A stretch of 64,000 bases of DNA, taken from the NCBI RefSeq assembly GCF_022201045.2, contig NC_068560.1, positions 29,343,501 to 29,407,500 on the forward strand. Reading direction: 5' to 3'. This document shows, piece after piece, positions 5,491-51,451 of this stretch. This DNA is from Citrus sinensis (Eukaryota > Streptophyta > Magnoliopsida > Sapindales > Rutaceae). The translations under genes and the position numbers were made by a program. Position 1 is the stretch's first letter. Every line of letters begins with the position of its first letter. The notes under the pieces were generated by a model, which did not search any database, was not told where the DNA came from, and saw nothing but the letters and a program-made list of their open reading frames with translations.

Positions 5491-5570
5491 ATACATACAT
5501 ATATATACACACACACATACATACATACATACATACATATACATATACATGTATGTACGTATGTCTGTAT
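5491..5570. repeat. (ACAT)n / (AC)n microsatellite
   Basis: Tetranucleotide ACAT repeats with embedded AC and AT runs, ending in a GTATGT mirror segment. Confidence 0.85.
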
Positions 5571-12354: not shown

Positions 12355-12601
12355 TTGCATTCCCATGAACTTCTGATAGATTTATATGCGTCCGGATGCT
12401 CAGATTTTTTTTTTAAATTTAGATTTGTTAAGCTGAACGACTTAATAGAGTCATTTTTCAATGTAATATAAAGTCGTGTGATTTAATAGCATTAAATTTG
12501 ATTCTATTAAACCGCACGATGTAACAGCGTATCTACATAGAAAAAAAAAAGAGTGATAGCACCAGAGAAGGATTGTATATATTTCAATATTTGTGCACGC
12601 G

Positions 12602-12639
<38 letters not shown>

Positions 12640-12965: not shown

Positions 12966-12999
12966 TTAATGTTTAGTGGTTGAGATTTTTCATTCCTAT

Positions 13000-13560: not shown

Positions 13561-14249
13561 AAGATTCCTCATTTCATTTATTTACAAGAAGTTATCACAT
13601 GAATATATAACAGGGCTAATGAGCTGCATAAGGTAATGAATAAATCTAATATCTAATTCATATATCAAAGGGATTGCAAATAAAATAAATACAGAAAGTC
13701 AAGACAATCTCTCGACAGAAATCAATTACATAAATTAAGGGAAATCAATCTTGACACAGCACAATGCTAATCATAATATTCTAGCAAAGAAGAAATAATT
13801 GGCATCGCGTACCAACTAAGAAGATTAATCAATCTTTGTTTAACCTTTTCTGCTTATTTTTATTTTTTGCTGGAGTTTTGTGCTGAAAGCTGTTTTTTTT
13901 TTTAATTTATTTTATGAAAGCGGGTTGAGAAAGACAAGTTATATTATATATGATACCCTAGCTAGCGATTTACCAAATAATAGCCATAGTATTTTCTTTT
14001 CTTTAATAATGCAGCAGCAATAGCTTTTAGATTACAATATTTCAATGGCTCAATTTCAAACAAAATCTTAATTCAATTAAAATTTATGAAAAAATTGCAA
14101 CCACTTAATAAATAGATGGAACAAAAAAGAAATATAAGATAAAAAATTTAAGATTTCTAGCCATCTTGTTACTCTTTTCATTAGTTAATTTATTACTCAG
14201 AGAGATGCTTTTGACAATATGGCTTTATTGTTTATTAGGATCCCCTAAA
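13561..14249. other. Intergenic spacer
   Basis: AT-rich; no gene seen. Confidence 0.45.
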
Positions 14250-14346
14250 TTACATTTCATGTACCTTACATCCACTCACATGAATAGTGTGTGGTGCTAC
14301 ACCACATACTATTCATGTGAGTGGATGTAAGGTACATGAAATATAA
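14250..14346. mobile_element. Near-perfect 97-bp palindromic MITE
   Basis: Arms 14250-14296 and 14300-14346 are inverted copies with only a few mismatches (core TACATTTCATGTACCTTACA). A half copy follows at about 14445-14510 and a related palindrome lies at about 16160-16245 (ACTATTCATGTGAG core), so the family amplified locally. Confidence 0.75.
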
Positions 14347-14977
14347 CTTAGAGTTTGTCTTATTTATTATTCTATTGTTAATCGTAATTGACTTTATGAG
14401 TTGGCCAATTTGCCGAATTTGCTTTTGATGCGAAGTGTTGGCATTGATATGACACTACACACTATTCATGTGAGTGGATATAAGGTACATGAAATGTAAT
14501 TTAGAGTTTGCCTTATTTATTATATATTCTATTGTTGATCATAATTGACTTGACCAATTTGCCGAAGTTGGTTTTGATGTGAAGTGTTGGAATTGATATG
14601 TCATAGGATGTCAATCAAGAGAATCACTGAAAAAAAGTAAGAACCACAATAACTTAATCAAGAGACTCTCTATGGTTCACAGAAGATAGGATTGGGGGTA
14701 TTCAAGTTCCAATCCAAACCAATCGATCCAATTTAAACTAATCTAATTGTTGTTGGATTGATCTTTTTAATTAGATTGAATTAGATTACAAAATAAAAAA
14801 ATCCAATGTTATCGTATTGGTTTGGATCTATGCGTTAAAATCGAACATAAATCAATCCAACCAATTAATTTTTATTTTTTATTTATTTATTAAAAAAGCT
14901 ACATGTCACTTTTATATTTTACTTTAAAAAAATTAATTTTTCTTATAAAAAATAAAACATGGTTTTGTACAACTATA

Positions 14978-15017
<40 letters not shown>

Positions 15018-16150
15018 TAGACTACAAACTGCAAGCCACAATAAGTGTTTACTTTTAATATTCAAATTTTAATTTTTTTTTTCACCCATATAGTAATAAA
15101 ACACATGAATCATGAAATATTAAAGGAGTTGATGTATAATTGTTTTTTCAATTGTCAGTAATTAGAACTTTAGAAAGCAATTGACCATTTTTACTTATAA
15201 TTTTTATTTTAATTGGATTAATTGGATTGATAGGATATGATTGAATTAGATTTGATTTTTTTTACTAGTTTGGATAATATTAAAGTTTAATTAGTGATTG
15301 GATACCATTGGATCTAGAATATAAAATTCAACGAATTTTATCTATTAAAAAATATTAAATTTCAACCGTTTTGTATAACTTTTCAAGTAGGGTTTGTTTA
15401 AGTAAAGTTTTTGTTAGCAGAATTTTTACAAGTAGAGTTTTTACTTAAAAATTTAGTTGTATGATTGTCAATGAGAGCTTTTATTAAAAATTATAAAATC
15501 ACTTTAATAGATAAGTTTTTTAAATTTGTGTTATGAAAAAAATAAAAATAAGACTGTCAAATAAATAGAGGATATCTTAGATTTTTAACATTTAAAAAAA
15601 TTCAACCTCTAGTCCTAAAAGCTTAAATTTTGAGCTTTTACCTGTAGAGGAAAAATAGCTTATTTTAATCTTCAAAAGCTCTATTAAAAAAAACTAAATA
15701 ACAATAAAAATTTTGACAAGAGCTTATGAAATTAAATAAGCATTTATGGTTATTAGACAAGTCATACTAAACATGCACTGACTATACCATAATTGAGTTT
15801 TATCCAAACAAATATATGTTTGTGATTTATAGTTGATCACATGTACGCATCTTTATATTTATTAAAAAATCATTCCAATGCTGAGTAAGCTTCCATCAAG
15901 TGAGAATTCTCTACTAAAATGACAATAGTTACTTCAAACTTTCACATTTCATACAAGACATTGACATTGTAATAGATAAATTTGAACAATGGTTCATTAT
16001 GTTGTCATTCCATGCTCATTAGATCAGTTATCGATTCTTTCGTCTCGATTAAATGATGAGTTGACCAAATTTCCTAATCTATCTCTATCACCTAAACAAA
16101 ATTGTTGGCTTTAAGTATATATGGCAATTTGACAAATAATGTTAGGCTAA
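14347..16150. other. Intergenic spacer, AT-rich repeats
   Basis: Contains a half copy of the 14250 palindrome, a (TAA)n microsatellite (about 14978-15017), and a region rich in ATTGGATTGAAT-like words (14690-15320) resembling the composition of the element at 54162-54960. No gene seen. Confidence 0.5.
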
Positions 16151-16629
16151 TGCTAAGTTACATGCATGTACCTTACACCCCTCTCACATGAATAGTGAAT
16201 GATGTGGGTTCACTCACTATTCATGTGAGAGAGTTATAAGGTAGTGTTAACATGCCTAATGTTAGGCATTTATATGTGACATAGGGTTTCAATCAACTCA
16301 AGTACCGAAATAACCCAAAATAGGGAATTTTTTAGTGCATGTTCATACATTTAAAAAATGGAAATTTAAGATTAGACAACATGTTTAACTACAGAACAGT
16401 GTTAAATTATAGCTAGTTAGACAATATCATTCAACCATAATTTTTGAGCAAGACAAATATTTTATACACGTATAAACGAGTATGATGTTTTATGTATGTT
16501 ACAAAAACATTAACTACAGCTTAGGTCTTCCTTGAATGAGACACGGAAACTCATATATGTCAACAGCAGATAGGAATATTACTACAAATCAACTTAACTG
16601 TAGAAACAAATCTTTTTGCTTTCATAACT

Positions 16630-17175
16630 ATTGATGCTTAGGTCTCACTTCAATGCCTTCAACTATAACCCCACCTTTTAGTTGATACCCTTTCACCTCC
16701 TTCAAGCTCATTTTCACCTCGTCGTCATCATCACATGCGCCATTAAAGAATTTTCCAAAGCTCAATTTCGACCCACCCGTCTTGTCTTTCACATGGGATT
16801 TGTTCATTTTCGCCGCCTTTATTTATCAACTTTGATGTCACCATCGTTTTCACGCCGTCCACTAATATTGATGAATTACTTTTTTGCTTGCTCCCCAAAT
16901 AAGCCACGCCTTTGGACACCCGATGACCACCAATTCCATGTGAAATTTTCGCGGCTTTTGAAGCAAAAGCCCATATGCTCTATCACTGTCGGAAGCGATA
17001 TTGATATTATTGTATAGAGTGTCTTATTTTATAAAATTAGCAAATTTAACCACGAGTGCATGCGATGATTTGCATGCATCTAATGGACAAGTGAGGGAGA
17101 AATTAAACAGTGGCCACGTACACACTCTTCTGGCAACATGTTGAAGTAGCAATTGATATTGAAATTTGCTTCCAT
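16630..17175 (-). pseudogene. F-box PP2-B copy 4, collapsed remnant
   Basis: Begins at ATG 17175 with an F-box start like copy 3 (MEANFNINCYFNMLPEECV), then frameshifts. At a GCATGC repeat the sequence jumps from within exon 1 to what is intron 1 in copy 3, and near 16990 jumps again into the middle of exon 3 (equivalent of AYGLDSEA). Exon 2 and most of the F-box are gone. The exon 3 remainder has further indels (an extra A around 16757) but keeps the KGGVIVEG-type end. No function expected. Confidence 0.88.
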
Positions 17176-26900: not shown

Positions 26901-29900
26901 TACAAATATAACAACTCTTTCTATCATTGGTAATTTATTGTGTTCAGGGAGTTCAGTGCCATCATTTGCAATTTTGACTTAGCTGATTGAATGTTTAATA
27001 TAATCTTTTAACTCGTTGCTTAGCTTGGGATGATATGTTCTTATATTTCTTGTTCCCAATCAGGATGTCCATATTTTAGTATATGATAGATCACCAAAAC
27101 TGCACCATTCTAAACAAGTCCTTTGAAAGTTTCTTGACATTGCTTTATCGACATTTTTGTTATAAATGTTACAAATTTCAATTTGGATGGTTATGCAGGT
27201 TTACATTCTTCTTTACAAGGAAGTTTCTATTGCTTTGAAAATTAACAGTATGTACAGTAAGAAAAGGCTCCTAAAAATTCATGAGAACGTGAAAGTACTG
27301 CGCCATCCTGACCATGTCTCAACTGGAGTTTATTTATGGTATTCTTCTTAGGCAGTTTACACCAAGTACTTTCCTTCTTGCTTGTTTTCTTGCTTCTGAT
27401 CACTGATTATATATATACATGCAGGTCTCACCATGAAAAACTTGTTATTGTTGATTATCGCATTTCTTTCATTGGAGGATTGGATTTATGCTTTGGTCGT
27501 TACGACACAATTGAACACAAAGTGGGAGATTGCCCTCCTTCTTTGTGGCCTGGGAAAGACTATTATAATCCAAGGTGTTTACTTATTTATTTTTTCTAAT
27601 TTGAGAAAATGGTTTTAGCATGACTAGTAGGGATTCAACTTCATTTTTATATAAGTATGCATTATATCAAATGGAATAAAACTTTTCCGATAGTTTAGTA
27701 TTGGTTATACATGTCAATATGATATGATTATAGAATTTTGTCGACTGCTGTTTGGTTATTCAAATAGTTGAAAGTGTTTGGTGGTAAGTGTATGGACTTT
27801 GATCTTAATACTTCTTTAATGTTGTTCGGCCAGAGAATCTGAACCAAATAGTTGGGAGGACACAATGAAAGATGAACTGGAGCGTGAAAAATATCCACGT
27901 ATGCCGTGGCATGATGTCCATTGTGCTTTATGGGGACCACCTTGTCGTGATATCGCTCGGCATTTTGTTCAACGCTGGAATCATGCAAAGGTTGATCTTC
28001 TGAGACTTGTGATCTTCTTTTTTTTCTTTTTTTTTTATTATTTGCCAAACTTATTGGCTGATATTAATTAACCATACTTTTAGAGAAGCAAAGCTCCAAA
28101 TGAACAAAACATTCCACTACTCATCCCTCATCACCACATGGTTCTCCCTCACTACATGGGAAGAAGTCGAGAGATAGGCATTGAAAACAAGAGCACAGAA
28201 GAAAATCAGAAAGATCTCACCAGACGGGATTCCTTTTCCTCACAATCACCATCAGAAGATATTCCATTGCTTTTGCCTCAGGAATCTGATAAACTAGTTG
28301 CTCCTAATGTCGATGACAAGTCAAATGGCCTCAATACAAATCATAATATTCTTGATAGGACATCTGGGTTCTATGGAAGTTGTACAATCCCTTCTAATGA
28401 GTACAAAACTGAAGCTTTAGCCCCAAATTCTAAGATAAGAGGTACCATAGATGGCCTTGATGCTGTGGATCTTCAACGTGAGATGAACTCAAATTCAGTT
28501 CGGGAGTTTGGCTTGGACAAGAGAGAAGAGTGGCGGGAAAAACCGGAAGAAAATCATGACATTTATTCTAGTAAATGTGGACAAGTTGGTCCGCGTTTGG
28601 CATGCCGCTGCCAGGTTAGCTACAACTCTGGCTATTAAATAAAATCTTGTAGTGTCCTTAGATTCTATTATGTCCCAAAATTGTGATATAAACTTTACCA
28701 GCAGTTATATCCATACACCATTCCAGCCAGACATGTTTGCCATGTGCTATTTCTAAGCTTCTTTGAGTTTTTGTGCCAAAGCATGTATTTAGACAAGTAT
28801 TTTGTGCCAATTAAAATCGTTAAAGGCCAGGTAAATGGTGTCATCAACATAACATGTAGGTTGCAGAACTCAATAAAACTCAAGTAAAGGAAACTCATGT
28901 GGATTAACTTGTTCACAGTGATATGTGAAGGAAAAACATAAATCTTGGTCATTATGAAAAAATTATACCACGTACATGGATCATGTATTTAGACAAGTAT
29001 TTTGTGCCAATTAAAATCGTTAAAGGCCAGGTAAATGGTGTCATCAACATAACATGTAGGTTGCAGAACTCAATAAAACTCAAGTAAAGGAAACTCATGT
29101 GGATTAACTTGTTCACAGTGATATGTGAAGGAAAAACATAAATCTTGGTCATTATGAAAAAATTATACCACGTACATGGATCTGGTATTACTGTCTTTTC
29201 TGCCTAATGTATCTGAACTATAATCTTGTTCTCTTTGTAATTTTAGTTTCCTGCCATAATGAATGAATATGTGCAGATTATCAGAAGTGTCAGCCAGTGG
29301 TCTACAGGAACAAGTCAAACAGAAGGTAGCATTCACAGTGCTTATTGTTCTCTGATTGAGAGTGCAGAACATTTTATTTACATCGAGGTAGGAGAACTTT
29401 ATTTGATGAAATATTTTCTTTTCCTAAGATGTTGGTTATTGAATGAACTTTTAGTCTTCAAGATTGTTCATTTCTTATGCTGACCATTTTGCTACTGCTG
29501 TTTCCTTCTTCCAGAATCAGTTTTTCATTTCAGGTCTTTCAGGAGATGAAACTATACAGAACCGCATCTTGGAAGCATTATACAGACGTATCATGCGAGC
29601 ATACAAAGAACAGAAATATTTCCGGGTTATTGTTGTCTTACCGCTCATACCAGGTTTCCAGGTACATACTTTTTTGGGGTTTCCCCACCTCAAGTTTTAG
29701 TTATAAATTAACAAGATACTTAGAATCTTTCTTTTGTGCATGCATCGACAGGGGGGTATTGATGATGGTGGGGCAGCAACTGTTAGAGCCATAATTCATT
29801 GGCAGTATCGAACTATTTCCCGAGAGAAAACTTCGATATTACATAAACTCAGTATGCTGCTTGGACCTAAAACACGAGACTATATTAGCTTCTATGGTTT

Positions 29901-34680: not shown

Positions 34681-34975
34681 CCTTTGATGGAGAAACAAAC
34701 AATATCAGATAGCCGGGCTCTGAACCAATAGCCGGAAAGCTGACGTCAGCCGCCGGAGTCCGAAGCAATCCCGGTGATCCCTTATTGAGCTGAGAATTCT
34801 AGAGAAAAAATCTTGAGATGGATTATTGCTGCAATAATCCATAATGAAAAAGAGCTTTTGTTGCCTTGTGTTCCTCTCCTTTTCACTGTGGAGAAGAAAA
34901 CAAAGGCGCAACTCTTTTGTTGTTGTTGTCGTTGTCGTTGTTTTCATACATCTTACACGTACATACAAAAGCACT
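34681..34975 (-). promoter_or_regulatory. Predicted PP2C leader exon with 45-codon uORF
   Basis: The minus strand holds an open frame from ATG 34842 to TGA 34705 (45 residues, starting MDYCSNNPSQDFF). It has more GC than its surroundings and is followed by an AAAG/GTCTTT donor. If spliced to 33691, it is an upstream ORF in the PP2C leader and would reduce or condition translation of the phosphatase. Its ATG lies in a 25-base inverted repeat (34818-34842). Confidence 0.4.
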
Positions 34976-35124
34976 TTGTTTATTTAATTTGCTTCTCCTT
35001 TGAACTGCTTTTCAACTAAATGTGCTTTTAGTTTGTGGTTACAAAGCTTCTTGTAATCTTGTTAGTTATTTGTATACTCCGTGCTCATACTTTCCATTTT
35101 ATAACATGTTAGTTATACAACGAT

Positions 35125-35159
<35 letters not shown>

Positions 35160-38100
35160 CAAGAGCTATATTACAATTTTAAAGCACCATTTTTGACCAT
35201 GTGTTCTTGAAAATGATGAGTTGAAAAATAGTTACCAATTGCAGACTTATTGGACTCTTGATAGCTCCAATTTTATAGGATTATTAGCATGTTAATGAGC
35301 TTGCATTATATATAGAACTTTGGTTTTATTAATTAAATAGTATTTAAATCTTGAGATTGGTATATCAACTAATTAGTTAATCATCATCTACGTTCTTGAT
35401 AAAACGAATAAAAAATTAAGAAATACATAGATGCCTTTTGTTGGCCAAACATGATCACTTGGATTAATATTTTAAATCAAATAGAATGTCTACCTCTACC
35501 ATATGATTTGTTCCAAAGGGTTTTTCTTTTTTTAATTTAATGTTTTGCGTATTTTTCAATGTATATTTTATAGTAACAAATTTTGTGCCAAAAAAATGTG
35601 TACCATACACATGGCAAATTATAAGCCAGGTGCTTCTTTTATTAATTCTAGCACCGTCAAAATTCAAATTGATTAAAATAATGAATGTGATAACAATTAT
35701 TTGTTAATGGAATATGAGTGATAATTTAGATAGGGTCAATGGGAGGAGTCAATTAGGGTAGCCAATCATAAGAAGCCACCAAGTGAATAAATTAAGAAGA
35801 AACAAGTAGAAAATGTTCCTTGAGTTTGCATCATATAATACCTAAAATTCTCTCACATGACTAAGCTTGTTGACCATGTTTATGCCAAATTTATAAATTC
35901 AAGTATAATTTTCTCTGGCTAATTTCATGACAAGAAATTTTTTTTTTTTTTTTTTTGAGGAATTGCCTTTAGAAAATAAGTTAACAATATTTTTCCTAAT
36001 TTTTTACGATAAAAAGCTGATGATTTAAAGCATTCTATATGAAAGTAGTTTAAGAATTACCACATTTTATTGATATACATTATGTGAGAAATGGGTTTTG
36101 GAGTTTACCCAATAATTGAAAAATATCTCTACAGAACTTACGCTATTTATATAACAAAATCTTGTCAAAATTGGAGGTTTTGAGGATAACACATGGATCT
36201 CTTTATTCATGACCAAAAGGAATCAAAGACAAATTGATGCCTCTTGGACCAAAAGGCAAATGCAAATATCAATTCAAGGAAAGCTGGGTGTCAATAACAA
36301 ATCGTTGAATCCAGAAACAAAATTTTGCACGTGAGTAATATTATTCTTACCACACATGCAAAGATTGAAAAGATTAAAAAAAAAGAAGAAGAAATATTGT
36401 GGGGTTTTCACTTCTAACGAAGCCTTTGTCTTTTATTAGGAAGTTCTATCCACTCTTAATAAAGCAATATCTTCTAAATTTCCATAAATATGTAGTATCG
36501 TGTTCTTTCTATATCTACGCAATTGGGTGAAAAAATGGTAGAGAAGATTGAAGAAAGAAGTTCCGTGCAAAAGTAATGAACCAAGAGGCACTTTTGTACT
36601 TGGTGCTCTCTCAAACGAAATCATTTATGAATTATGAGTACGTATATTAGGCCGCTTCTAGTATATATTCTTTATTTATTAAATTAATATCACACTCTAG
36701 TGTGATTGACCTAGAGGTACTTATAACAAGAATATAAATAATAGTTTAAATAATGTACAAATGGAGAACTCAAAATTTTGATTTGTCTAAAACAATTTTA
36801 CTTATTTTTGGCATCAAACTATAAGCTTATCGATATTATAATTACAGCCACTGAATATTACAACGATCGACAATTGGAACATTGTAATAAAATTATTTCT
36901 TGTTATTTAGTGTCTGCAAATACACCCATGACATAGTAGAGGTAAAAAAAAAAAGCCTATATATAATAAAGTTAGAAAGAAAGGAAATGGAAAATTAGGA
37001 AGTGATAAAACCCAAACCAAAATTGACAAAGATCTTATGAATGTTACTCCCACGGTACATTTTAAGAAAAGTGGTGGCGGTGATGGTGGAGGGGTTAAAA
37101 TCGGGTGGGTCCGATGCCCACCAAAAGAATACGACGGGCAATGACCAATCACTATTGATTTCACTTGGACCGAGTCAGATGATCTCACAGACTCCTTCTT
37201 TTGGGTTGATGAGGTGGGACCTCCTGGTGGCTGTCGGTAACAATTATTTCCCTTTACGAGATTGTTTTCAGAGTTGGCGACGCCTGTACCTTTCCCTGTA
37301 AACACCTTACACGTGGCCGGCCTACAAATAATCACACGCGTAATTACATTTCTCTTCCAAATTCTATAATTAAAACTCTAATGGAGGATGCACTCGAAAG
37401 AATCCAATGTGTACGTGTGTAGACATAATTAATAACAAAAACCACCCAATCCAACGGATATAATGAATGATACGAGGAGCCGAGGACGTGGCGACCCTGA
37501 AAAAATGCAAACAGTAACAGCAACGCATGTGATGCACAGAATTGCAACAGCCCACCTTCAGACCCCATGATGGAGTCGGTGGGAAAAACAAATGGAGCGA
37601 CCGATCGATTACATGGGGGCCACGGGATGATCAGGAGGGGACCAGCGGCCCAGGAACCATTAATGCATCCTAGAATTTAACGAATAAGGAGCTAACCACG
37701 TAACACCGAACAATCACATGCGGGGCGGCGCACTGGATGAGGACACGCAAGCTTCCACACAAATGCATAAGCATGAGAAGCAACAGTAATAGCCAGTAGC
37801 CCACGCCCCCTTACTTTTCTCCTTTTCATTGGGTAGGTGTTGACTTGTTGACTTTCAAGTCTTTTTAGCTTTCGAGTCTTTTTAGTCGTGTCTAATTAAT
37901 TAATTAAATTAAATTAACCTTTCAAAAATTAAAATAAAATAATGAGAAATCGAGGGTTTGGTCATTTTAATTGGCTAATTTGGAACAAAGGGTGGTGGTG
38001 ACCCATGGAAGATCTCTTGGGTCACATTAGCACGAAGATTAGATTTCTCATGCGGCCGAGACGATCATTCTAGAGTTTTTAAATATTATTTTAAGTTTTT

Positions 38101-39329
38101 AACATACTAATCATTGTTCAATTTACATAACTTTTTTTTTTAAAATTTTTTTTCCCCTAATGAAGATTTTGTGTGATGGCTTTTGGATGAAGAGTCGTGT
38201 TTATAATATTTTGATGATGGGATTGGGAGAGGTACTTTTTATGGGTGTCTTTGACTAAGAAAGCTTCATTGTCTTTGAATTGATGAGTTAAAAAAATGTC
38301 CAGTTGGGGGTGGGGTGGGGGTGGTCATATTCTAATGAATAGAAAAAGAAGACAAATGGCAATTGAGTGTTGAGTGTTGAGTGTTGAGTGAATGAGTGTA
38401 AAAAGTTGCAGAGCCAAATGAGTGGCAACAAGGAAAATGAAAGTGAAACTGACAGTCACGTGATGATGAAAGGATGGATAAAACTATTCATTGTCAATGG
38501 CATTGCATTTCAGGCTAATGCAAAGTTACATTGATTTTATACTGTAGATAAAGAGATTTTATTCTATAAGTTGTTGATCCCAGATGAGGAGAACTTTAGA
38601 TTTGACACCCAAGAATATCACCTATCGGTTCTTGAATGTATTATAAGATGTGCGTGCTAAAACTGGACAGCTGTGAATTTTCAGATAAAAATTACTAAAA
38701 TAATAAGAAATTAAAAAACCCATAATAATTAAGAAACATGTTACATGTGCATGTAAAGAGTCTACTGTTTCTTGTATTATCGTCTGCAAAAATCAATCCC
38801 CAGCACATTTGCCTGGGTGAGAGGAGAACACAGTCAAGAAGCATATCGATATGCCAGTCTAGCCTGTTGTTTTGTAATATGACTCATATTTTATTAAGAA
38901 AGGAAAATCAAACTTTGACGATTGAAACCCCGGTTGCATTCTGCTAACTTATTCTAATTGCGTAAAGAAGAGTTGGTAGAAAAATAACCAACTTTTAGTG
39001 GGAGCTTCTGTATAAAATTATCAACACTACTGGTGTTAACTGTGAATAAGATGCGATGTAATATTATTGGTGGTACAGCTAGACCTTTTTATTATACCTA
39101 ACAGCCCATTCCAAGGTCCAAAGCCATTATGTTAAGCACTTGATCGGATGGCTATCGATTCACTTCAGCCACTGACACCACACCACATGGGAAAGGCTGA
39201 GCTAAGTTGTTTTTCAATGTTTAACTTGCGATTCTATCATAAACAGACAGCTTTTCCAGCTACTAGTTCTACATAACATAGAACATGGCTATTGTTCGTT
39301 TATATGTAACAAACAACACAAAGAAAGCT
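34976..39329. other. Gene-poor intergenic region
   Basis: AT-rich sequence with a (TA)n run (35129-35157), a triple TGAGTGT repeat (38364-38390) and a G-rich tract (38306-38324). Around 37030-37340 and 37480-37760 base composition is richer in GC with ACGTGG (ABRE-like) words, suggestive of a promoter, but no coding exon is visible on either strand. Confidence 0.5.
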
Positions 39330-40640
39330 ACAGTTTTAAAGTCCAATTTGACAAATATTTTCTAGAAATAAAGCAAGTTCACTGCAGAGGTCCAACAGTT
39401 AAGTACTGAATATATGAAGAGTTTCATCAGCTCTCTGCTTGTCTTAACATTTATGTTCTGATAAATTCAATTTGATACCTTTAATTAATTGTGTCTGTTC
39501 AATATGCGAACTGCATTCTAAGTTGCTGGATTGTCTCATGCGATCAGCCTCAAACTGTCATATAATCTGCGAAGACTGGTGGTACAGGTTAAGGTCAAGG
39601 CCAGCAACATTCCCACCTACTCGTGCCCGCAAGATTGCCTGAAAGAGAACGGAACATGGGAACACTTTAGTTTAATAATTAATTCGGGAAGCCTTCAACC
39701 TTTTGGAATGATGATATCAACCTCTTACCTCAGGAAGCCTTCAATCTTCAGGATGGCATTTCGATCAGCAATTATAGCTGTATCTGTCTCTACAGCATGA
39801 TTTGTAACCTGGTGGCAAAGATTTTAAGCTTTAAATTGGTAGGCTATTATCATAATAAATAATAAAAACCCGGTGCAATCATCCGGCGTCTAATTTCAGC
39901 ACCAGCAAAACAATACTGGAATGGTTGGCCTGTCCCAATAATTAATCTCACTTAGCGGATCAACACCACATAATAGGAAAACAATACTCATAAGAAATGG
40001 CTCAAACATCATTTGTTGGCACCGAAAACAGAAGATAATTTCCTGGTCAAAAGGAAAAACCAGATTGGATAAATAATGTTTTCTGTTGACATCCACATGA
40101 CAAATATCTAGATAACTGTAAACAGCTTTTCAATATTTTTCTCTTTTACATGATGAAACCTACTAATTAGTAGTCTGCCCGCAAGAGTAAAATAATTCTT
40201 TAGACAGAAATCATCAAGGGATGACACACTCTCAAATCTAACTAGCTGTTCATTTAAATTGTTATTAATCAATGTGAGCTGCAAACCAATTGCTGAATGT
40301 AAGAGTTTTATCCTGGATCTAGTCCCTCGAGGGCATTTACTCCCAAGAGAACAATCAAACAAATTGCTGCGTCAGCACAATATGTCAGCTGCAAACACAT
40401 CTGCACAAGATAGGAAAATTATTATTTATAAATATTAAAGAAATCCTTATATGTAATGCCCACCTGCACATGATTTCCTCCTCTGCTAGATACTTATTAG
40501 ATGCCTTTGTTTTAATCTTTCTTTTAACCATTGAACTTAACAACCTTTGCTGCACATTTATTTGATGTGCTTTGTTATGCAACTTGTAACTGTTTGCTGC
40601 ATATCTTAGAGCAGAAAACTACAGTAAATCTTGTTATTTT
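39330..40640 (-). pseudogene. TEN1 duplicate, degenerate 3' part
   Basis: Collinear with 49265-50850 of the intact TEN1 gene. The exon 3 homologue (about 39530-39635) keeps words such as AGGTTAAGGTCAAGGCCA but is disrupted. The exon 2 homologue (about 39727-39810) has lost roughly 75 bp of its centre. Intron 1 homology continues to about 40640. No exon 1 copy was found. It is a non-functional partial duplicate on the other side of the large palindrome. Confidence 0.8.
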
Positions 40641-40810
40641 CACTGAAAATGAAGGCATTTTCATTATCTGACTATTCAGAGTATCTTAATTTATATAAAG
40701 AAATTGGCAAATAAAAGAAGTGTGATGCATTAAACAAAATATGCCAAGAGAATTAACTGACTATTGAGAGAGCCAACGAGCTAGTTTATGCTTTAATTTT
40801 TCTAAATATT

Positions 40811-41810: not shown

Positions 41811-42485
41811 AGTAAAAAGGAGAACATTTTCTGCATTAGGAGATAGGAAAAAAAATGTATAAAAGTTGTTTGAAAAATTCTGCATACCAACTTTCTGTAA
41901 CATTTCAGATTGACCTTTTCAAAAAGCTAGTTGAACAAGAACAATGAACTAGCAATATTTTCACCTCATTTTACAAATAATAAAACTAAAGAATTCAAGA
42001 TTCAATTGAAGAACAATGTATTCAACTTGAATAACCATGAGTTGCAAAAATCAAAAGTACCATTTACAAACATCAATCTACCCTCACTGGTGGCAACAAA
42101 ACAACAAATGCTTACATTTTAACTCCAGTTGCAACAGTCCTGTCACCCTGTGTGCTTCATGTATCAGCGTGTCTACATGTATTACCAGATAACTGATAAA
42201 ACCAGGGCTGATCTATCACTATATATTCTATGTGCAACTAAAGAATGAATGGTACCCTTCATGTGTTAAAAGAAGCTCTTTACTTCATCAGACCATCAGT
42301 TTTCTGCCACATCCAACGACCCATCTTCAGAATGCTAGTTCTTTCATCCTTCAAAGCACATTCTGAATGGCACGACATTGATGACAGATACTGCACTGAC
42401 AACTCTTGCGAAAAGCATCATCCAAAAGTAAAGCAGCTCTTCATGCAGCATTCTCACGCAATTGAGTTGTAACATGTTTGGCTTT
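41811..42485. other. Left flank of the large palindrome
   Basis: Minus-strand fragments with a coding-like look (for example QLRENAA, stop, RAALLL near 42470-42425) may be further pieces of the same broken gene; they are too short to name. Confidence 0.3.
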
Positions 42486-43490
42486 ATGGGGTTCCGGCGT
42501 AGACCCTCCGATGCTTAAGTCAAAAATTGTGTATAAAGAGATAAAATTGAGAGTGAAGAATTGTGAATGAGTTCAAAATAAATGAATTTTCCGATAGAGA
42601 AACTAAAAATCTGGTCGGGAATGTTAAGGCTCTTAGATAGGTCACTTATAGAGTTTTTGGTTGATTTTTGCTAACCCCCTTCTCTGTTGCCCTCTTCAGC
42701 TTAAATAGCCATTGGTCGTGGGCGGTTACCACCTTAACTTTAGCCCACCTTCTTCAGCAATTGCGAGTGGTTAATAATTGGAGACTGTTTAACAAATCGT
42801 GGCGTACAACTTCCCTAAAAATTAGGCTACGTTATTTAAGCCAATAACTTTCCATGTCAAACTAATTCCCCGAGTCGGACAAATAAATTTTGAGGTCGGA
42901 TTTCTTCATTTCCAGGTGGGACTGGTGAATTTTCCTGTCGCTCATGTAGGTTCAAGGTTGTATTTTTAAACCCGGTTGTTCACATAAATCTCAGGTCGTA
43001 TTTGTAAACCAGATTGCCAACATAGGCTCCAAGTCATACTTATGAGGTCAGCTCGATACTGATGAGTTCTGAGTAGATTGGGGTTGACCATATTTTCAAA
43101 CGTTACTGGAAAAATTTAACACAAACACCAGTCCCCTAGTTTTCAATACCGAAAGTAATTGCTGGTGTTGTAAACTAATTATTTAAGATTAGAAAATTTT
43201 TTTCTCAAACCCAACACCAATCTCCTAGTTTTCAATACCGAGAAGGTACGATCGGTGTTGGAAACTTGAGTAGAAATAACTAGACAATCAATAACAATAA
43301 CGGGAAAAACTAATAATTATGCAAGCCTTTTATTATAAAGTGAATTATTAAATTAAGGAAGATAATAAAGAAAAAGTGAAAGAAGTAATAAAGTGGTGAG
43401 AATTGATTAAATTTGCAAATTAATTAAAAATAAAAGCAAGAAATGAGTGCGAATTTATAACTAGCAAAGATTTAATGAATGAAAGTAGAA

Positions 43491-44372
43491 TAAAGTTAAG
43501 GGAAATTTGTAACCTACTCCCAAATAAATTGACATTTTGCACTGCGTCCCCAACAAATTTGACTTGTTGCACTACGCACCTAAAAAAATTGACATTTTTG
43601 CACCATGCCCCCAATTCCGTTATTTTCTCAGTTAAGTTTAACGGTGGAGGGGTAAAATTGGAAGTTTATTCCTTAAATTAATTTTAATGGGAATTCTCTT
43701 TATTGTAATTAAAATAAAAATCTTTAAAAAATTAAAGGAAAAATAATAGTGGTGACAATGTACATGTAACAAGAAATTTTTTTATTACAATTAAAATAAA
43801 AATCTTTAAAAAATTAAAGGAAAATAATAGTGGTGATAAATGTACATGTAACAAGAATTTTTTTTATTAAAATTGAAATTAAAATCTTTAAAAAATTAAA
43901 GAAAAAATAATAGTGGTGACAATGTACGTGTAACAAGAAATTTTTTTTATTGCAATTGAAATAAAGATCTTTAAAAAAATTAAAGGAAAATAATAGTGGT
44001 GACAAATGTACATGTAACAAGAATTTTTTTTATTAAAATTGAAAAAAAATCTTTAAAAAATTAAAGAAAAAATAATAGTGGTGACAATGAACATGTAAGA
44101 AGAATTATTTTTTTTTATTGCAATTGAAACAAAAAACCTTAAAAAATTAAATGAGCTAAAAATTTTGTTTTTTTACATAGAGGGGCATTTTTGTCATTCA
44201 ATCAAAAGTTAAATGGAGCCGTTAAACTTAACTGAGAAAATAACGGAATTGGGGGCGTGGTGCAAAAATGTCAATTTTTTTGGGTGCGCAGTGCAACAAG
44301 TCAAATTTATTGGGAACGCGGTGCAAAATGTCAATTTATTTGGGGGTAGGTTACAAATTTCCCTAAAGTTAA
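43491..44372. mobile_element. Mutator-type MITE, 864 bp, 9-bp target duplication
   Basis: Element 43500-44363 has 145-bp terminal inverted repeats (43500-43644, 44219-44363) starting GGGAAATTTGTAACCTAC. Flanking direct repeats TAAAGTTAA (43491-43499, 44364-44372) are 9 bp, the Mutator signature. The right palindrome arm (about 46730-46755) shows the uninterrupted target with one copy of that word. No coding capacity. Confidence 0.92.
43680..44160. repeat. About 83-bp minisatellite inside the MITE
   Basis: About five AT-rich units, each containing AATAATAGTGGTGACAA and CATGTAACAAGAA, spaced about 83 bp apart. Confidence 0.85.
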
Positions 44373-45184
44373 AATAGCAAAATTAAAATGAAAAAGGAAT
44401 GGGTAATGGGCATCACCTGTGGCTGTGACAAATAAATAAAGTAAAATTAAAATGAAAAAGGAATGGGTAATGGGCATCACGTGTGGCCTAAAGAGAGTTT
44501 GAAATTTAAATAGCAAATACCGTGCTTGACTGCAGCCATCTGACAAACTGGCCACACTCCACACCATCATAGCCATCCGTTTTCTACAGCCAGGATCTTG
44601 TTTTGATTATTATTCTCTACGGGCACCCTGCGCATGACCTAGGTTTTTCCTCCTCTCCAACTTGTGCGGCTGATTTTGGGAGCTCGTCTTTATCAGCATG
44701 AATGGTCACACGAGTCTTGGTGAGTTCAGTTGTCCTTCTCCATCCGCTGCTTTCCCTTTTTTTTTTTGGTGAAAATCAAACTTCTTATTTTGTCAAAACC
44801 CGAAGTTCTTTTTTTTTTTTTTTGTTGGCGAATGCTGGGCTCATGGTAGTGTGTACTGTTGATGTAGTAAATACTGTGTTGCTTGCTTTTGTCGTTTCTG
44901 CATACTATAGAATCCATCTGGGTTGCAAACAACTTTGGTGAGTTGCCTCGTTTCAAGCATTATCTGGCTGTTGCATTCTTGTATTTATGAATAAGAATTT
45001 TATTGAGTGTTGGGATAGTTGTGCTGTGTACTGTGTTGCGTGTAAGCTCTGATGAGTAAAGCAAAGTGACATTGGTAGTAAAGGGTTGCTGTCATTTAGC
45101 TGGGTTAACAGTGGAGATATTGATGCATTATGTATTGGCATTTGAATGAGGAATTAGGTTTTTAAGTGTATATGTTAGGCAATA

Positions 45185-45499
45185 ATGGAGTTTAGGAGTG
45201 AAGATGGGTCACTTTGTAGCGATTCGCAAAATGCGAATAAGGAGTTGTTGGATGGGCTCAGTGATATTGCATCGGGTGTAGATAATAATGTTAAAGTCAG
45301 GGAAAATAATGTAGAATTAAATTGTAATATGGCCGAAACTAAGTCTAAGAAAATAAGATGCGGAAATGAGGTGAATGAGGAATTGAGTTGTGCACAATTT
45401 GAAGATGAGGGAGATGAGCATGAAGAATATGGCGTGAACAGACTAAACTTTGATACAACAGAGAAAGAGATTGAAGAGTTGAGGAAAGAATATAACTAA
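45185..45499 (+). pseudogene. Captured host-gene exon, left arm (104 codons, open)
   Basis: Open frame starting MEFRSEDGSLCSDSQNANKE, acidic, with FEDEGDEHEEYGVNRLNFD before the palindrome centre cuts it off. It is preceded by an AG acceptor-like site, an intron-like stretch, and a leader with a TTG/GTGAGT donor near 44720. I do not recognise the family with confidence; acidic N-termini of this kind occur in FAR1-related and other nuclear proteins. It is truncated, so a functional protein is unlikely. Confidence 0.55.
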
Positions 45500-45683
45500 A
45501 CTTTGATACAATAGAGAAAGAATATATGATTCACAAACCTAAGTGTGAATATATGATTCACAAACCTAAGTGTAATATCGTATATAACTAAACTTTGATA
45601 CAATAGAGAAAGAATATATGATTCACAAACCTAAGTGTGAATATATGATTCACAAACCTAAGTGTAATATCGTCTAGAATCAG
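45491..45683. repeat. Palindrome centre: 92-bp unit twice
   Basis: Two direct copies (from 45491 and 45583) of a unit that itself contains GAATATATGATTCACAAACC twice. This is the only part not mirrored between the arms. Confidence 0.85.
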
Positions 45684-45992
45684 ATATTCTTTCCTCAACT
45701 CTTCAATCTCTTTCTCTGTTGTATCAAAGTTTAGTCTGTTCACACCGTATTCTTCATGCTCATCTCCCTCATCTTCAAATTGTGCACAACTCGATTCCTC
45801 ATTCACCTCATTTCCGCATCTTATTTTCTTAGACTTAGTTTAAGCCATATTATAATTTAATTCTACATTATCTTCCCTGACTTTTCCATTATCATCTACA
45901 CCCGATGCAATATCACTGAGCCCATCCAACAACTCCTTATTCGCATTTTGCGAATCGCTACAAAGTGACCCATCTTCACTTCTAAACTCCAT
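45684..45992 (-). pseudogene. Captured host-gene exon, right arm (nonsense-interrupted)
   Basis: Inverted copy of 45185-45490. It starts at ATG 45992. The codon for Glu in the MAET segment is TAA here (GCTTAAACT instead of GCCGAAACT, about 45840), so this arm cannot encode the same fragment. Confidence 0.75.
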
Positions 45993-47748
45993 TATTGCCT
46001 AACATATATGCTTAAAAACCTAATTCCTCATTCAAATGCCAACACATAATGCATCAATATCTCCACTGTTAACCCAGCTAAATGACAGCAACCCTTCACT
46101 ACCAATGTCACTTTGCTTTACTCATCAGAGCTTTCACGCAACACAGTACACAACACAACCATCCCAACGCTCAATAAAATTCTCATTCATAAATACAAGA
46201 ATGCAACAGCCAGATAATGCTTGAAACGAGGCAACTCACCAAAGTTGTTTGCAACCCAGATGGATTCTATAGTATGCAGGAACGACAAAAGCAAGCGGCA
46301 CAATATTTACTACATCAACAGTACACACTACCATGAGCCCAGCATTCGCCAACAAAAAAAAAAAAAAGAACTTCGGGTTTTGACAAAACAAGAAGTTCGA
46401 TTTTCACAAAAAAAAAGGGAAAGCAGCGGATGGAGAAGGACAACTGAACTCACCAAGACTCGTGTGCCATTCATGTTGATAACGACCAGCTCCCAAAATC
46501 AGCCGCACAAGTTGGAGAGGAGGAAAAACCTAGGTCATGTACGGGGTGGCCGTAGAGAATAATAATCAAAGCAAAATCCTGGCTGTAGAAAACGAATGGC
46601 TATGATGGTGTGGAGTGTGGCCAGTTTGTCAGATGGCTGCAGTCAAGCACGGTATTTGCTATTTAAATTTCAAACTCTCTTTAGGCCACACGTGATGCCC
46701 ATTACCCATTCCTTTTTCATTTTAATTTTGCTATTTTAACTTTATTCTACTTTCATTCATTAAATCTTTGCTAGTTATAAATTCGCACTCATTTCTTGCT
46801 TTTATTTTTAATTAATTTGCAAATTTAATCAATTCTCACCACTTTATTACTTCTTTCACTTTTTCTTTATTATCTTCCTTAATTTAATAATTCACTTTAT
46901 AATAAAAGACTTGCATAATTATTAGTTTTTCTCGTTATTGTTATTGATTATCTAGTTATTTCTGCTCAAGTTTCCAACACCGATCGTACCTTCTCGGTAT
47001 TGAAAACTAGGGGACTGGTGTTGGGTTTGAGAAAAAAAATTTCTAATCTTAAATAATTAGTTTACAACACCAGCAATTACTTTTGGTATTGAAAACTAGG
47101 GGACTGGTGTTTGTGTTGGATTTTTCCAATAACGTTTGAAAATATGGTCAACCCCAATCTACTCAGAACTCATTAGTATCGAGCTGACCTCATAAGTACG
47201 ACTTAGAGCCTATGTTGGCAATCTGGTTTACAAATACGACCTGAGATTTATGTGAACAACTGGGTTTTAAAATACAATCTTGAACCTACATGAGCGACAG
47301 GAAAATTCACCAGTCTCACCTAGAAATGAAGAAATCTGACCTCAAAATTTATTTGTCCAACCCGGGAATTAGTTTGACATGTAAAGTTATTGGTTTAAAT
47401 AACGTGGCCTAATTTTTAGGGAAGTTGTACGCCACGATTTGTTAAATTGTCTCCAATTATTAACCACTCGCAACTGTTGAAGAAGGTGGGCTAAAGTTAA
47501 GGTGGTAACCACCCACGACCAAGGGCTATTTAAGCTGAAGAGGGCAACAGAGAAGTGGGTTAACAAAAATCAACCAAAAACTCTATAAGTAACCTATCTA
47601 AGAGCCTTAACATTCCCGACCAGATTTTTAGTTCTTCTATCGGAAAATTCCTTTATTTTGAACTCATTTACAATTCTTCCCTCTCATTTTTATCTCTTTA
47701 TACACAATTTCTGACTTAACCATCGGAGGGTCTGCGCCGGAACCCCAT

Positions 47749-49264
47749 CAACGTATCCTAACCGTGTTTTCTGGTTGACATGTACAAAAAATTGCGGTCA
47801 TATTGGCGTTTGAGCTTGGATTCGCGCTGTAATTCCCCAAAATAAACAAATTCAGCTGTTGAGGTCGTTTTTCGGCATCAACACTCTCCTCAGAAACGTT
47901 ATCTTGATCCCTTGATAATTCAGGTATGGGTAATGGGTTCTTCTTGCCTGTTCCTCTTGCTTGGCAAAGAAAAAGCAAGAAACTGAAAGTATCATTCTTG
48001 TTTGTCTTGCACTTCTGAGAAAGCATATTGTATTGTTAATATAATGTAATTTATATAAAAACTTGTATCATTTTTTTATTTTATTATGATACAATACAAT
48101 ACAATATTAAATATTTTTATATTATAATAATTAATATATAAAAATAATTATGTAATAATTAATTTAAACAATAATGATGGACATGTCATGTGCAGATTAT
48201 CAGAAGCACTTTGTTACATAATTTGCTTTTGCTTTGAACTGGCTTTTAACGAAAAGTGCTTTTAGTTAACCTAGAATCAACTAAATTCAGCTAAAATTTT
48301 ATTGGCTAAAATCTATATAAATTTTTACTTTGTAGAATTTTTGTTTCAGAAATTAAATTTTACAAAACATGATTCGTAAAAATATATCATCCGCTTAACA
48401 TTATTATAAAATTCTTCAAGTATTTTATGAACCTTTAAAGATGTTGTTATCGTATGAACTCATTTTTGCATGAGCGATGTTTTCTCGTTTATAATTTTTC
48501 AATGTCACTAATCAAATTCGACCGAGAAATTGAGAATTGTGAGAATGCATCTAAATAGTTTGCCGGTTCTATTAATTTAGTGTGGTTTTTCTCTAAAAAC
48601 TCGGAGGGCTCCGCCAGAAAGAGTTTGGGGATTCAATCGTTACATAAATTAATTTGAAGAAATTATTTATAGTTTATATAACAATTTAAAATACCATATT
48701 TGATCTTTTATTCTTGAAAATGATGAGTTAAAATAGTTAGAAATTGCTAACATATTGGACTGTTGACATCTCCAATTATATAGGATTATTAACGTGTTAA
48801 TGAGCACAATTATAAAACTTTGGTTTTTTCAAATTTAATAACATTTCAATCTAGAGCTAAGTATAAATCAATTATTTAATTAGTTAATTGATATATAAGT
48901 TCTTGATAAAACCAATAAAATGTAAAAGTATACATAGATGCCTTTTGTTGGTCAAAACATTTAAAGCTTAGATTAAAGATCCGTTTGGAATTGAAATTGA
49001 GTAACTTTAGCTTAAAAACTATAGCACTAAAGTATTTGGTACATACTATATATTGTAGTTTAAAAGTTATGTTGATATAATTTTTACTTATATGATGAAA
49101 AATCTATTATATCTGTAATAATTTTGTCAAAATTATTATTTAAAATTTGTATTTACTATATACTATTAACTTTTGTTTTATAATTACAGTTTTTTTTCTA
49201 CAACAACTGTCGCTTAACACTTCAATTCCAAATATAACCTAAATTTTTAAATCAAATAGAATGT
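47749..49264. other. Right flank of the palindrome
   Basis: A 92-codon minus-strand ORF (48026-47748; with KKNPLPIPELSRDQDN) reads up to the palindrome edge and may be a coding relic, not recognised. The rest is AT-rich spacer. Confidence 0.35.
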
Positions 49265-49452
49265 CTACAGCTTTTAAAGCTCAATCTGACAAATATTTTC
49301 TAGAAATAAAGCAAGTTCACAGCAGAGATTCGGACAGTTTACTGAATCTATGAAAAGTTTCATCAATTTTCCACTTGTCAAACATTTAGCTTCTGATAAA
49401 TTTAATTTGATACATTTAATTATCTGTGTCTGTTCAATATTAAAACTGCATT

Positions 49453-51451
49453 CTAAGTTGCTGTATTGTTCATGCGATCAGCCTGAAACTGTCTCAGAAG
49501 CTGCAAAGACTGGTGATACAGGTTAAGGTCAAGGCCATCAACATTCCTACCTACTCTTGCCTGCAAGATTGCCTGAAACATAAGGGAACATTGGGACAAA
49601 TTAATTGAATAATTAATTTAGCAAGCCGTCAACTGTGTAGAATGACGATATCAACCTCTTACCTCACAGTCCGCTTGAATATGAAGTTCACCGATGAACT
49701 GGTAGATCGATCCAACTTGAAAGCTAAGGTCTCTCAGGTGCTGAGTGTCAATCTTTAGGATGGCATTTCCATCAGCAATTATAGCCATAGCTGTCTCTAC
49801 AGCATAATCCTGTAACCTGGTCGGAAAGATTTTTAAGCTTTAAAATGATAAGCTATTATCATATAAAAAATAATGATAGTTTGACCCAAAAAAAAAAAAA
49901 AAACATTCTGGTGCAATCATACAGTGTCAGTGTCTAGTATCAGGCTAACAGCACCAGCAATACAATACTAGAATGGTTGACCTGTCCCAATAATTAATCT
50001 CACTTAGCAGCTAAACAACGCATAATAGGAAGACATTATTAATAATAAATGGCTCAAACATCATTTATTGACACTGACAGAAGATAATTTCCTGGTCAAA
50101 AGGAAACCTGATTGGATAATAATGTTTTCTGTTAACATCCACATAACAAATATCTAGACAACTGTAAACAGCTTTTCAATATTTTGCTCTTTTTCATGAT
50201 CAAAAACCTACTAACAAGTAATTTGCCATCAAGAGTAAAATGATTCTTTAGACACAAACTATCAAGGGATGACAGAACACTTAAATTTACTAGCTGTTGA
50301 TTTTACTTGTTATTGAGTAATGTGGTACACATAAAAGCATTCACTTCATTGGTTTTGAAGGATACATGCCACCTTAATGCAGGAAACCAAATATTATAAC
50401 AACATGTAGGTATATGGTTAACCAAAATGTGTAAGAAATTTTTTAGAATGTAAGGAAGGGAATTTTATCCTAGACCTTGTGGGCATTTACTCCGATGAGA
50501 ACAATCAAACAAATTGCTGCTATAACGCATGAGCTGCAAACACATCAATACAAGATAGGAAAATTATTATTTATTGATATTAAAGAAATCCTTTCATGTA
50601 ATGCCCACTTGCAGATGTTTTCTTCCTCTGCTACATACTCATTAGATGCTTTTTCTCTCTTTTTTTTTTCAATCTTTCTTTTGACTATTGGACTTAACAT
50701 CCTTTGCAGTACATTTATTACTCTTTGCTGCATATTTTTTATTACTGTTTGTTGATCTGGTATTTGATGTGCTTTGTATTATACGATATATTACTGTTTG
50801 CCGCATATTGTTTTGACACAAACCTATAGTAAATCTTATTCTTTTCATTGAAAATGACGGCATTTTCCTTGGTTCCAATTCTAGGTCAACAAACTTTCAA
50901 AGTTTTAACCACCTTAAGGCCATGGTAACCCACACTTTTAAGCAATCAATCCCAACACCACCACGGCAATTGTAATGTTATTTATCACCAGCACTAATGC
51001 CACCACCACAGATCCATCTCATCTCATCATCCAACATATTACAGTACCACACTCACCACCATCTTCAACAACCCCTCCATTGCACTCTAGCATTTTTCAC
51101 CAATAACAATCTTCACCAAACTCTAATTTTTTACTTAACTACGTTATCACAACTCAAAAATCCAGAAAGAGAATCAAATCATAATCTAATACTATCAAAA
51201 CTCAGGAATGCTCCCAAAAGATACAAAAAACTTGACAAGGAACATAGACACTAGAGCCACTGCAGTATGAAGATGCATGCAAACAAATAAAATTACAAAT
51301 GCAGTTAAAAGCACCGCTACTAAACTTTGGAATATCAGAAATCTTACTTCCCAGTAACTCTTAGTGAAGCCCCTTCCTCGTAGAATTGCGAAGATGGGTG
51401 TAGCTCTGTTAAATTAACCAATGCCCCAGATTTTATTGCAGAAGATGCCAT
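49453..51451 (-). CDS. TEN1: CST complex subunit TEN1
   Basis: Three exons: 51451-51348, 49816-49663, 49572-49453, giving 125 codons, close to the Arabidopsis protein. The start MASSAIKSGALVNLTELHPS leads to GASLRVTG joined across the first intron to KLQDYAVETA. Exon 2 ends with SIYQFIGELHIQADCE and exon 3 starts AILQARVGRNVDGLDLNLY. This is the OB-fold subunit that with CTC1 and STN1 forms the CST complex, which protects telomere ends and helps fill in the lagging strand. In Arabidopsis, loss (mdo1) disturbs meristems. The first intron (1.5 kb) holds the sequence shared with the degenerate copy at 39.3-40.6 kb. Confidence 0.9.

Follow-up and report, generated by a model that had tools for sequence, protein, structure and literature searches.

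A palindromic derivative of a Retand-type LTR retrotransposon in Citrus sinensis, probably formed by tail-to-tail joining of two incomplete cDNAs

The window analysed here is a 64,000-nucleotide stretch of Citrus sinensis DNA (NC_068560.1, positions 29,343,501 to 29,407,500, forward strand); positions without a prefix are counted within it. Two inverted arms, 42483-45493 and 45684-47751, align in ungapped blocks at 94–98% identity, so the near-perfect palindrome claimed in an earlier sequence-only reading is real. The arms are about 2.1–2.2 kb each. In a gapped alignment, the outer 1 kb is 95.6% identical and the part from 44440 to 46732, spacer included, 92.3%. The arm-versus-arm K2P distance is 0.040; of the 2065 sites aligned, 80 differ, 62 by transition and 18 by transversion. 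The 190-nt spacer that forms the turn (45494..45683) is element-derived: it prolongs the element sequence of the right arm and then re-copies pieces of 27 bp and 92 bp in tandem. An 820-nt strand spanning the centre has a folding energy of -576.7 kcal/mol, compared with -173.75 +/- 6.59 for 20 shuffles. The left arm is interrupted at 43500..44363 by one single high-copy inverted-repeat element of 864 bp, a later insertion flanked by the 9-bp target duplication TAAAGTTAA (43491-43499 and 44364-44372), which from the length of that duplication we take to be a MULE-like MITE. Because the arms are 4% apart, one of them alone holds an insertion flanked by a target duplication, and a second palindrome has a different joint (see below), an assembly artefact is an unlikely source of the palindrome.

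Judging from its sequence, each arm represents the 3'-terminal part of a Retand/Tat-type Ty3/gypsy LTR retrotransposon and comprises an LTR, a polypurine tract and the first part of an antisense gene. Specifically, the right LTR (47108..47883, plus strand) is complete at 776 bp, ends in GGCATCAACA, is preceded by the polypurine-tract-like AAAACTAGGGGACTGG and matches the LTR of an ordinary family member on C3 by BLAST (c3 12462-11701). The left LTR (42485..43127, sense on the minus strand; BLAST match to the same C3:12033022 element, c3 201-826) has an intact inner end; the loss of 137 bp from the outer LTR end explains why, by BLAST and flank comparison, the left arm starts at about 42485. 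The two LTRs are inverted, with their U5 sides facing outward. Between them lie the left 3' internal region (43128..45493, minus strand), which contains the polypurine tract, the antisense leader and the antisense ORF start and is split by the 864-bp insertion, and the right 3' internal region (45684..47107, sense on the plus strand), in which the antisense ORF starts on the minus strand at 45992. The sequence-only reading had proposed ATGGGGTTCCGGCG as the terminus of the element. However, the left LTR is simply broken there, and the right arm continues to the LTR end at 47883. Beyond ATGGGGTTCCGGCG, an outward 25-bp stretch is common to 22 of 22 other aligned genome places (19–25 of 25 letters; C3:11543 kb, where the locus sequence ended, is left out of this count), and is matched at 24 of 25 letters in the right arm of the window and at 10 of 25 in its left flank. 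A transposon with the terminus ATGGGG is ruled out, as homology carries on outward. That the unit resembles a mobile element is supported, and relatives are found elsewhere in the genome.

The antisense gene contains a candidate leader intron in the left arm (GTGAGT...TTAG, 44720..45178, plus strand), read by eye, as was a like layout in the C3 member, followed by an ORF start of 104 aa (45185..45499, plus strand) that is cut off at the turn. The layout of promoter, leader, intron and first exon that had been ascribed to a host gene is present in both arms, but it matches an LTR-retrotransposon antisense ORF and not a host gene. The gene start recurs at many places in the genome; thus, a single-copy host gene, which had been expected as its parent, is not its source. 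Duplication of a host gene is ruled out by the PF04195 ORF within the family: in the C3 member (L050), the antisense ORF contains Transposase_28/TRP28 (PF04195, E 9.9e-8), a domain that spans residues 131-195 of the ORF scanned. In the window the ORF ends before this domain and has no match at the Pfam cut-off. An antisense TRP28 ORF located between pol and the 3' LTR is characteristic of the Retand/Tat lineage. The opposite strand encodes gag (PF03732, E 4.3e-9) in another relative (L070, minus strand), and Pfam found no reverse transcriptase in six ORFs of relatives and one window ORF. The assignment to the Retand/Tat lineage is suggested by TRP28 and the layout. In the available parts of PMC11963269 and PMC7264820, Retand/Tat-lineage Ty3/gypsy elements carry antisense TRP28 ORFs; the word 'inverted' is absent from PMC11963269.

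The ordinary member, C3:12033022-12045420, has direct LTRs with TG...CA ends that are 100% identical over 763 bp, TTGGCGCCGTCTGTGGGGA adjoining its 5' LTR, and a 5-bp target duplication, AATAA/AATAA. The arm sequence of the window maps to the LTR and the 3' internal portion of this member, with no BLAST match across c3 964-1823; the leader missing from this match is matched at 89% by the palindrome on C8 and at 76% by an ordinary C6 member. The family thus resembles Retand/Tat elements in its LTRs, its polypurine tract, the antisense PF04195 and gag of its relatives and the 5-bp duplication of the C3 member. In contrast to this ordinary layout, LTRs are inverted in the window, C8 and C2 copies, of which only the 3' part is present, and a target duplication is absent from the window copy. 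Inverted LTRs are also found in DIRS-1, a tyrosine-recombinase element (available part of PMC5633606). However, standard DIRS members have inverted terminal repeats and no duplication, whereas the LTRs of the C3 member are direct and flanked by one. Inverted ends, several copies and a gene-like promoter, intron and exon could also suggest a DNA transposon of the foldback or MULE type that has long inverted repeats at its ends and has captured part of a host gene. This is scarcely credible: the ends consist of LTR sequence, whose relatives include direct-LTR and solo-LTR copies, the duplications are of 5 bp (C8 and C2) rather than 9 bp, with none at the window, the gene is the retrotransposon antisense ORF, and the direct-LTR C3 member refutes it.

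The second palindrome, C8:23624407-23629386, has both ends exactly at U5 LTR termini and is flanked by TATAT/TATAT (5/5). C2:22774439-22782713 likewise ends at U5 LTR termini, is flanked by CCTTG/CCTTA (4/5) and has a single internal part; it is an older, asymmetric case of the same plan with a different joint. The probability of such duplications by chance is 0.0016 for 5/5 and 0.022 for at least 4/5. C9:20690300-20692300, with arms of 76–78% around a joint resembling the others, is a possible fourth case; in 11.5 kb at this locus no LTR was recognised, only a piece from just inside the LTR (c3 892-941). In C3-element coordinates, the joints are at 2184/2213 (window), 2388/2426 (C8), ~2393 joined to LTR position 586 (C2) and ~2390/2647 (C9). 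The spacers of the window and C8 are parental sequence, and the C8 joint shares ACC/GGT. Three of the four joints lie near position 2390, which the model proposed below does not explain.

In the LTR similarity searches, scores were obtained for 40 of 94 candidates and for 40 of 113. A typed pattern located 95 LTR U5 ends, the window copy not being counted as its left U5 end is missing. These ends form 19 neighbouring pairs within 20 kb (8 ++, 6 --, 4 +- and 1 -+). Of the four inverted +- pairs, the two at C8 and C2 agree with the dimer plan. Neighbours less than 10 kb apart, inverted and with U5 outward, were seen twice; random placement, repeated 2000 times, gave a mean of 0.07 and a P(>=2) of 0.003, a control that ignores the clustering of transposons. 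The pair C6:16634559/16649662 is a duplication that takes in host flank, with 95% similarity between its inverted copies, which comprise the LTR plus at least 58 bp of flanking sequence. The pair C3:29141052/29155272 consists of another end beside a 5' LTR that has a primer site. C6:287500-288400 was set aside as an apparent local inversion in an otherwise ordinary relative.

The pair C6:16634559/16649662 seems to be a case of chromosomal inverted duplication, in which a broken chromosome folds back and duplicates an element that was already in place. As an origin of the window palindrome this process is highly improbable. At both the window and C8, inverted homology ends at the element ends, save ~10 bp of AT-rich target at C8, and the host flanks are single. 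Moreover, the left (42377..42484) and right (47884..47958) flanks of the window copy are 81% and 83% identical to C5:31163382-31163489 and C5:31163492-31163559, respectively; joined, they match this near-empty paralogous site, which largely refutes the explanation. Comparison with the same site shows that the window copy lacks a target duplication, and 2-bp CA and TT matches, seen by eye, possibly mark its junctions. The window copy probably entered the chromosome by end joining; with its truncated end and no duplication, it does not demonstrate integrase action.

We consider it likely that the palindrome arose from two incomplete minus-strand cDNAs of a Retand-type Ty3/gypsy element, joined at their 3' ends and then inserted. 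Minus-strand cDNA starts from the LTR's U5 end and continues through U3, the polypurine tract and the antisense gene. Two such strands would have halted about 2.1–2.2 kb in, and their 3' ends would have met at a short homology, each being extended on the other; alternatively, one strand may have folded back on itself, or the ends may have been fused by repair. The product would be a dimer with an inverted LTR at each end and both U5 ends outward. The C8 and C2 dimers would have inserted with an integrase-type target duplication, whereas the window dimer would have gone in with no duplication, apparently through end joining once one of its LTR ends had lost 137 bp. What we observed is the element family, its structure, the joints and target duplications, the near-empty site and the grouping of arms by locus; the minus-strand cDNA stage of joining and the enzyme responsible we infer. 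Such joining seems to have occurred more than once in this family.

Host double-strand-break repair could instead have done everything, joining the cDNAs and inserting the window dimer by end joining, perhaps by polymerase theta with templated insertions, with no role of reverse transcriptase or integrase in the joint. We regard this as a tentative alternative. In its favour, the window copy lacks a target duplication, its left LTR end is broken, the CA/TT matches may be present at its junctions, and its turn holds repeatedly re-copied pieces. In yeast, Ty1 cDNA pieces caught at breaks come mostly from the 3' LTR region (PMC11724301, available part), and such incomplete cDNA resembles the duplication-less window copy, although no palindromic dimer is described in that part of the source. 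On the other hand, C8 and C2 keep both LTR termini and 5/5 and 4/5 duplications, which are not expected from break capture.

The arms group within each locus. Among the site patterns of the window and C8 arms, 112 are within-locus, 2 left-with-left and 0 crossed; with a mosaic tract excluded, the counts are 38, 2 and 0 (1709 sites). The two palindromes therefore formed separately, or their arms were homogenised. The tract, of 307 sites, contains 74 of the 112 within-locus sites, and there the window arms are C3-like (90%); these 74 sites are not independent mutations, because the parent of the tract is mosaic. Within-locus similarity could also stem from gene conversion after one common origin, and in the leader (window 44370-45219) the window and C8 are mutually closest, at 89–90%. 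However, a single ancestral element that replicated as a palindrome, its arms kept alike by conversion, is improbable: the within-locus pattern persists outside the tract, the C3-like tract is present in both window arms and neither C8 arm, the joints differ, and the layout is unfit for normal reverse transcription. Among scored candidates, the window and C8 joints were found at no other place (16/16 and 22/22).

Arm differences are more frequent in the LTR than in the internal part at both the window (36/642 versus 44/1423, p 0.009) and C8 (35/773 versus 44/1697, p 0.014), which is not predicted by an origin at one moment without uneven mutation or conversion. C>T/G>A accounts for 79 of 128 private changes in the four arms and for 40 of the 104 earlier changes that could be polarised (6 unresolved; p 0.0006). 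We dropped a methylation signature as the reading of this excess, as there is no control locus and the mosaic tract holds most earlier sites (71 of 104); outside it the C>T/G>A share is 16/33.

Complex LTR insertions in grasses, attributed to template switch, likewise reflect abnormal joining in one reverse-transcription cycle and single insertion, as judged by 5-bp duplications (available part of PMC1950507). Unlike the window palindrome, the elements described there have three LTRs and share an internal LTR, and 'inverted' is absent from that material. The available part of PMC2151762 concerns PCR between neighbouring LTRs, and in that of PMC7215508 'inverted' refers to primers. Among the titles and abstract openings listed from the open-access literature, none describes a palindromic U5-to-U5 LTR element.

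Having no normal 5' LTR/primer-site layout, the window insertion is most likely a dead end, and it cannot collapse to a solo LTR through direct-LTR recombination. The inward-facing antisense promoters may give hairpin RNA, and long dsRNA or siRNA from the arms is structurally possible. Mu killer likewise holds transposon ends in inverted copy and can produce hairpin RNA; it derives from another element class, and the hairpin RNA of the window is a predicted one. A bolder proposal, which we find doubtful, is that the family repeatedly makes U5-U5 palindromic cDNA accepted by integrase as a normal substrate, and that inverted LTRs spare these insertions solo-LTR collapse, so that the last internal copies of a subfamily survive in this form and serve as hairpin loci by which it is silenced. 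If the dimer model is right, it would mean recurrent integration of retroelement DNA with two U5 ends rather than one U3 and one U5 end. Dimers would be a natural source of long inverted repeats, and programs that seek direct LTRs would be expected to miss them. A genome scan could then address how frequently tail-to-tail dimers emerge from reverse transcription, and whether they initiate the silencing of their family.

The inverted repeat in the window consists of a left arm (42485-45493) and a right arm (45684-47751), the latter followed by unpaired LTR sequence to 47883. Consistent with the sequence-only reading of a near-perfect palindrome, ungapped blocks of the arms pair at 94-98%, the K2P distance between the arms is 0.040, and the 820 nt at the centre have a folding energy of -576.7 kcal/mol, compared with a mean of -173.75 kcal/mol for 20 shuffles. 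The palindrome is therefore real, far beyond chance. A search of the 299.7-Mb assembly (11 contigs) finds the arm sequence at many other places in the genome.

The decisive relative for the identity of the arms is C3:12033022-12045420, which has two direct 763-bp LTRs (TTGGCGCCGTCTGTGGGGA at the 5' LTR, AAAACTAGGGGACTGG at the 3' LTR) flanked by AATAA/AATAA. Because these LTRs are 100% identical over 763 bp, the insertion is very recent; the internal region of this locus (L050, C3:12032959-12042900) contains tandem arrays. Each window arm comprises a 3' LTR, truncated in the left arm, and ~1.4-1.5 kb of 3' internal sequence. The gene-like features of the arms are oriented antisense to the element. 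Specifically, the first coding exon, previously taken for the duplicated start of a host gene, matches a retrotransposon antisense ORF, which carries Transposase_28 in the C3 member (PF04195, E 9.9e-8). In another relative (L070), gag is found on the opposite strand (PF03732, E 4.3e-9). In the leader part (positions 964-1823 of the C3 member), BLAST gives no match between the window and the C3 member; this part of the window arms is 89% identical to a palindrome on C8 and 76% identical to an ordinary member on C6. The window family probably belongs to the Retand lineage, a name given by layout and TRP28. In one study, 97% of the Retand clusters are reported to carry antisense TRP28 ORFs (PMC11963269), and antisense transcription of TRP28-type ORFs has been described, for example in maize Grande (PMC7264820).

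ATGGGGTTCCGGCG, proposed earlier as the identical terminus of both arms, lies inside the LTR and is not an end of the element, as the homology continues outward with a common stretch at 22 of 22 other places. The complete right LTR (47108-47883) ends with GGCATCAACA, and the outermost 137 bp are missing from the left LTR. The host flanks have a paralogous counterpart elsewhere on this chromosome, at C5:31163382-31163559, to which the left flank aligns up to 42484 (81%) and the right flank from 47884 onwards (83%). The joined window flanks align as GCTT|CTCTC against GCTTCACTCTC, so the window copy has no target duplication. Judged by eye, CA at the insertion may be lost, or be shared with the terminal CA of the LTR, and the left junction may share TT. 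Fold-back of the chromosome was rejected as the origin of the palindrome, since the host flanks join up to match the C5 region. The window copy therefore came in as additional DNA, which would most simply have occurred by end joining.

The same plan recurs on C8 and C2, and possibly on C9. C8:23624407-23629386 is a palindrome with ~2.5-kb arms (K2P 0.033) and a 35-nt spacer, both ends of which lie exactly at U5 LTR termini, with flanks TATAT/TATAT. At C2:22774439-22782713 the LTRs are inverted, their U5 ends facing outward, and share 83.7% identity across 514 aligned positions; the flanks are CCTTG/CCTTA, and the internal part is present once and apparently contains a later insertion. The chance probability of the target duplication is 0.0016 for C8 and 0.022 for C2. 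At C9:20690300-20692300 the arms are older (76-78%), with no recognised LTR. At spacings up to 10 kb, two inverted U5-outward pairs occur, compared with 0.07 expected from 95 randomly placed U5 ends with clustering ignored (P 0.003; U5-outward pairs only). L062 and L063 (C6:16634500-16638500 and 16645700-16649720), 15 kb apart, contain an LTR together with 58 bp or more of host flank as inverted copies, 95% identical, and are probably a chromosomal inverted duplication. In the open-access literature searched, mainly titles and abstract openings, we found no description of palindromic LTR elements of this plan.

Synthesis of minus-strand cDNA starts at the LTR's U5 end, with the 3' portion of the element as the first to be copied. 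Two unfinished minus-strand cDNAs joined tail to tail would yield linear double-stranded DNA with a U5 end on either side. The C8 and C2 dimers then appear to have integrated in the normal way, and the window dimer appears to have been end-joined into the chromosome. It is quite probable that the window palindrome is such a tail-to-tail cDNA dimer. In coordinates of the C3 element, the halves stop at 2184 and 2213 in the window, 2388 and 2426 in C8, ~2393 and LTR position 586 in C2, and ~2390 and 2647 in C9. The spacer in the window and C8 is parental sequence that continues one half. The C8 joint is at ACC/GGT, and within the window turn are GAATCATATATTC-type copies, a repeated 27-bp unit, and an exact repeat of a 92-bp unit. 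Such joints would be the expected trace of two minus-strand cDNAs of unequal length linked through their 3' ends, in the window with some back-and-forth copying. Joining by repair, which we hold to be rather unlikely, would leave the same structure and differ in the enzyme. For the cDNA dimer, template-switch insertions with 5-bp duplications, reported as three-LTR complexes, are a precedent in form (PMC1950507), and Ty1 cDNA at yeast breaks is reported to originate mostly from the 3' LTR region (PMC11724301).

Among two-versus-two sites in the four arms of the window and C8 palindromes, 112 unite left and right arms within a locus, 2 unite the two left arms and the two right arms, and none is crossed. 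The start of the antisense ORF, a 307-site tract, contains 74 of the 112; here both window arms (45142-45493) are C3-like (89.8% over 354), C8 matches only in pieces, and the preceding leader is C8-like. Thus, the parent element of the window copy was a mosaic of two subfamilies, carried by both arms. Outside the tract, 38 sites are within-locus, 2 left-with-left and 0 crossed (1709 sites). K2P between window and C8 arms is 0.093-0.100, tract included. The simplest reading of these patterns is that the two palindromes formed separately, from different parents; the alternative is that gene conversion between arms made them alike within each locus. A C>T excess in the arms disappeared once the mosaic tract was removed. 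The left arm also contains an 864-bp inverted-repeat element (43500-44363) with ~150-bp terminal repeats and 82-bp internal repeats. Its absence from the right arm and a separate 9-bp target duplication show that this element was inserted later than the palindrome. Among the best 40 of 237 candidates, it has at least 31 other matches >800 bp at 89-98%, 19 of the 31 at 97-98%, and thus was probably active recently.

On either side of the palindrome, direct repeats (39328-40665 and 49265-50870) lie ~10 kb apart and are 79-85% identical, suggesting a tandem host duplication around it; 34966-35449 and 48201-48956 form a further direct-repeat pair. Repeated blocks at 1652-16966 include ORFs for Phloem protein 2 (PF14299) at 3791-4348 and 10735-11226 and are likely a tandem gene cluster. 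A 200-bp unit is present at 28782-29181 in two tandem copies with 100% identity.

Outside both palindromes, the closest LTRs to the window LTR (among the best 40 of 94 candidates) are L033 (96%), L034 (93%) and L036 (90%), all read by eye as solo LTRs, with flanks AGAGG/AGAGG, AAAAC/AAAAT and TGTGT/TGTGT, respectively. No ordinary member matches the window or C8 internal region at >85% over >400 bp (16 of 16 and 22 of 22 candidates scored); the antisense-ORF start of the window copy has six shorter matches (324-368 bp, 86-91%). Inverted LTRs do not collapse to a solo LTR through direct recombination, and we infer that this escape would explain the survival of the internal sequence.
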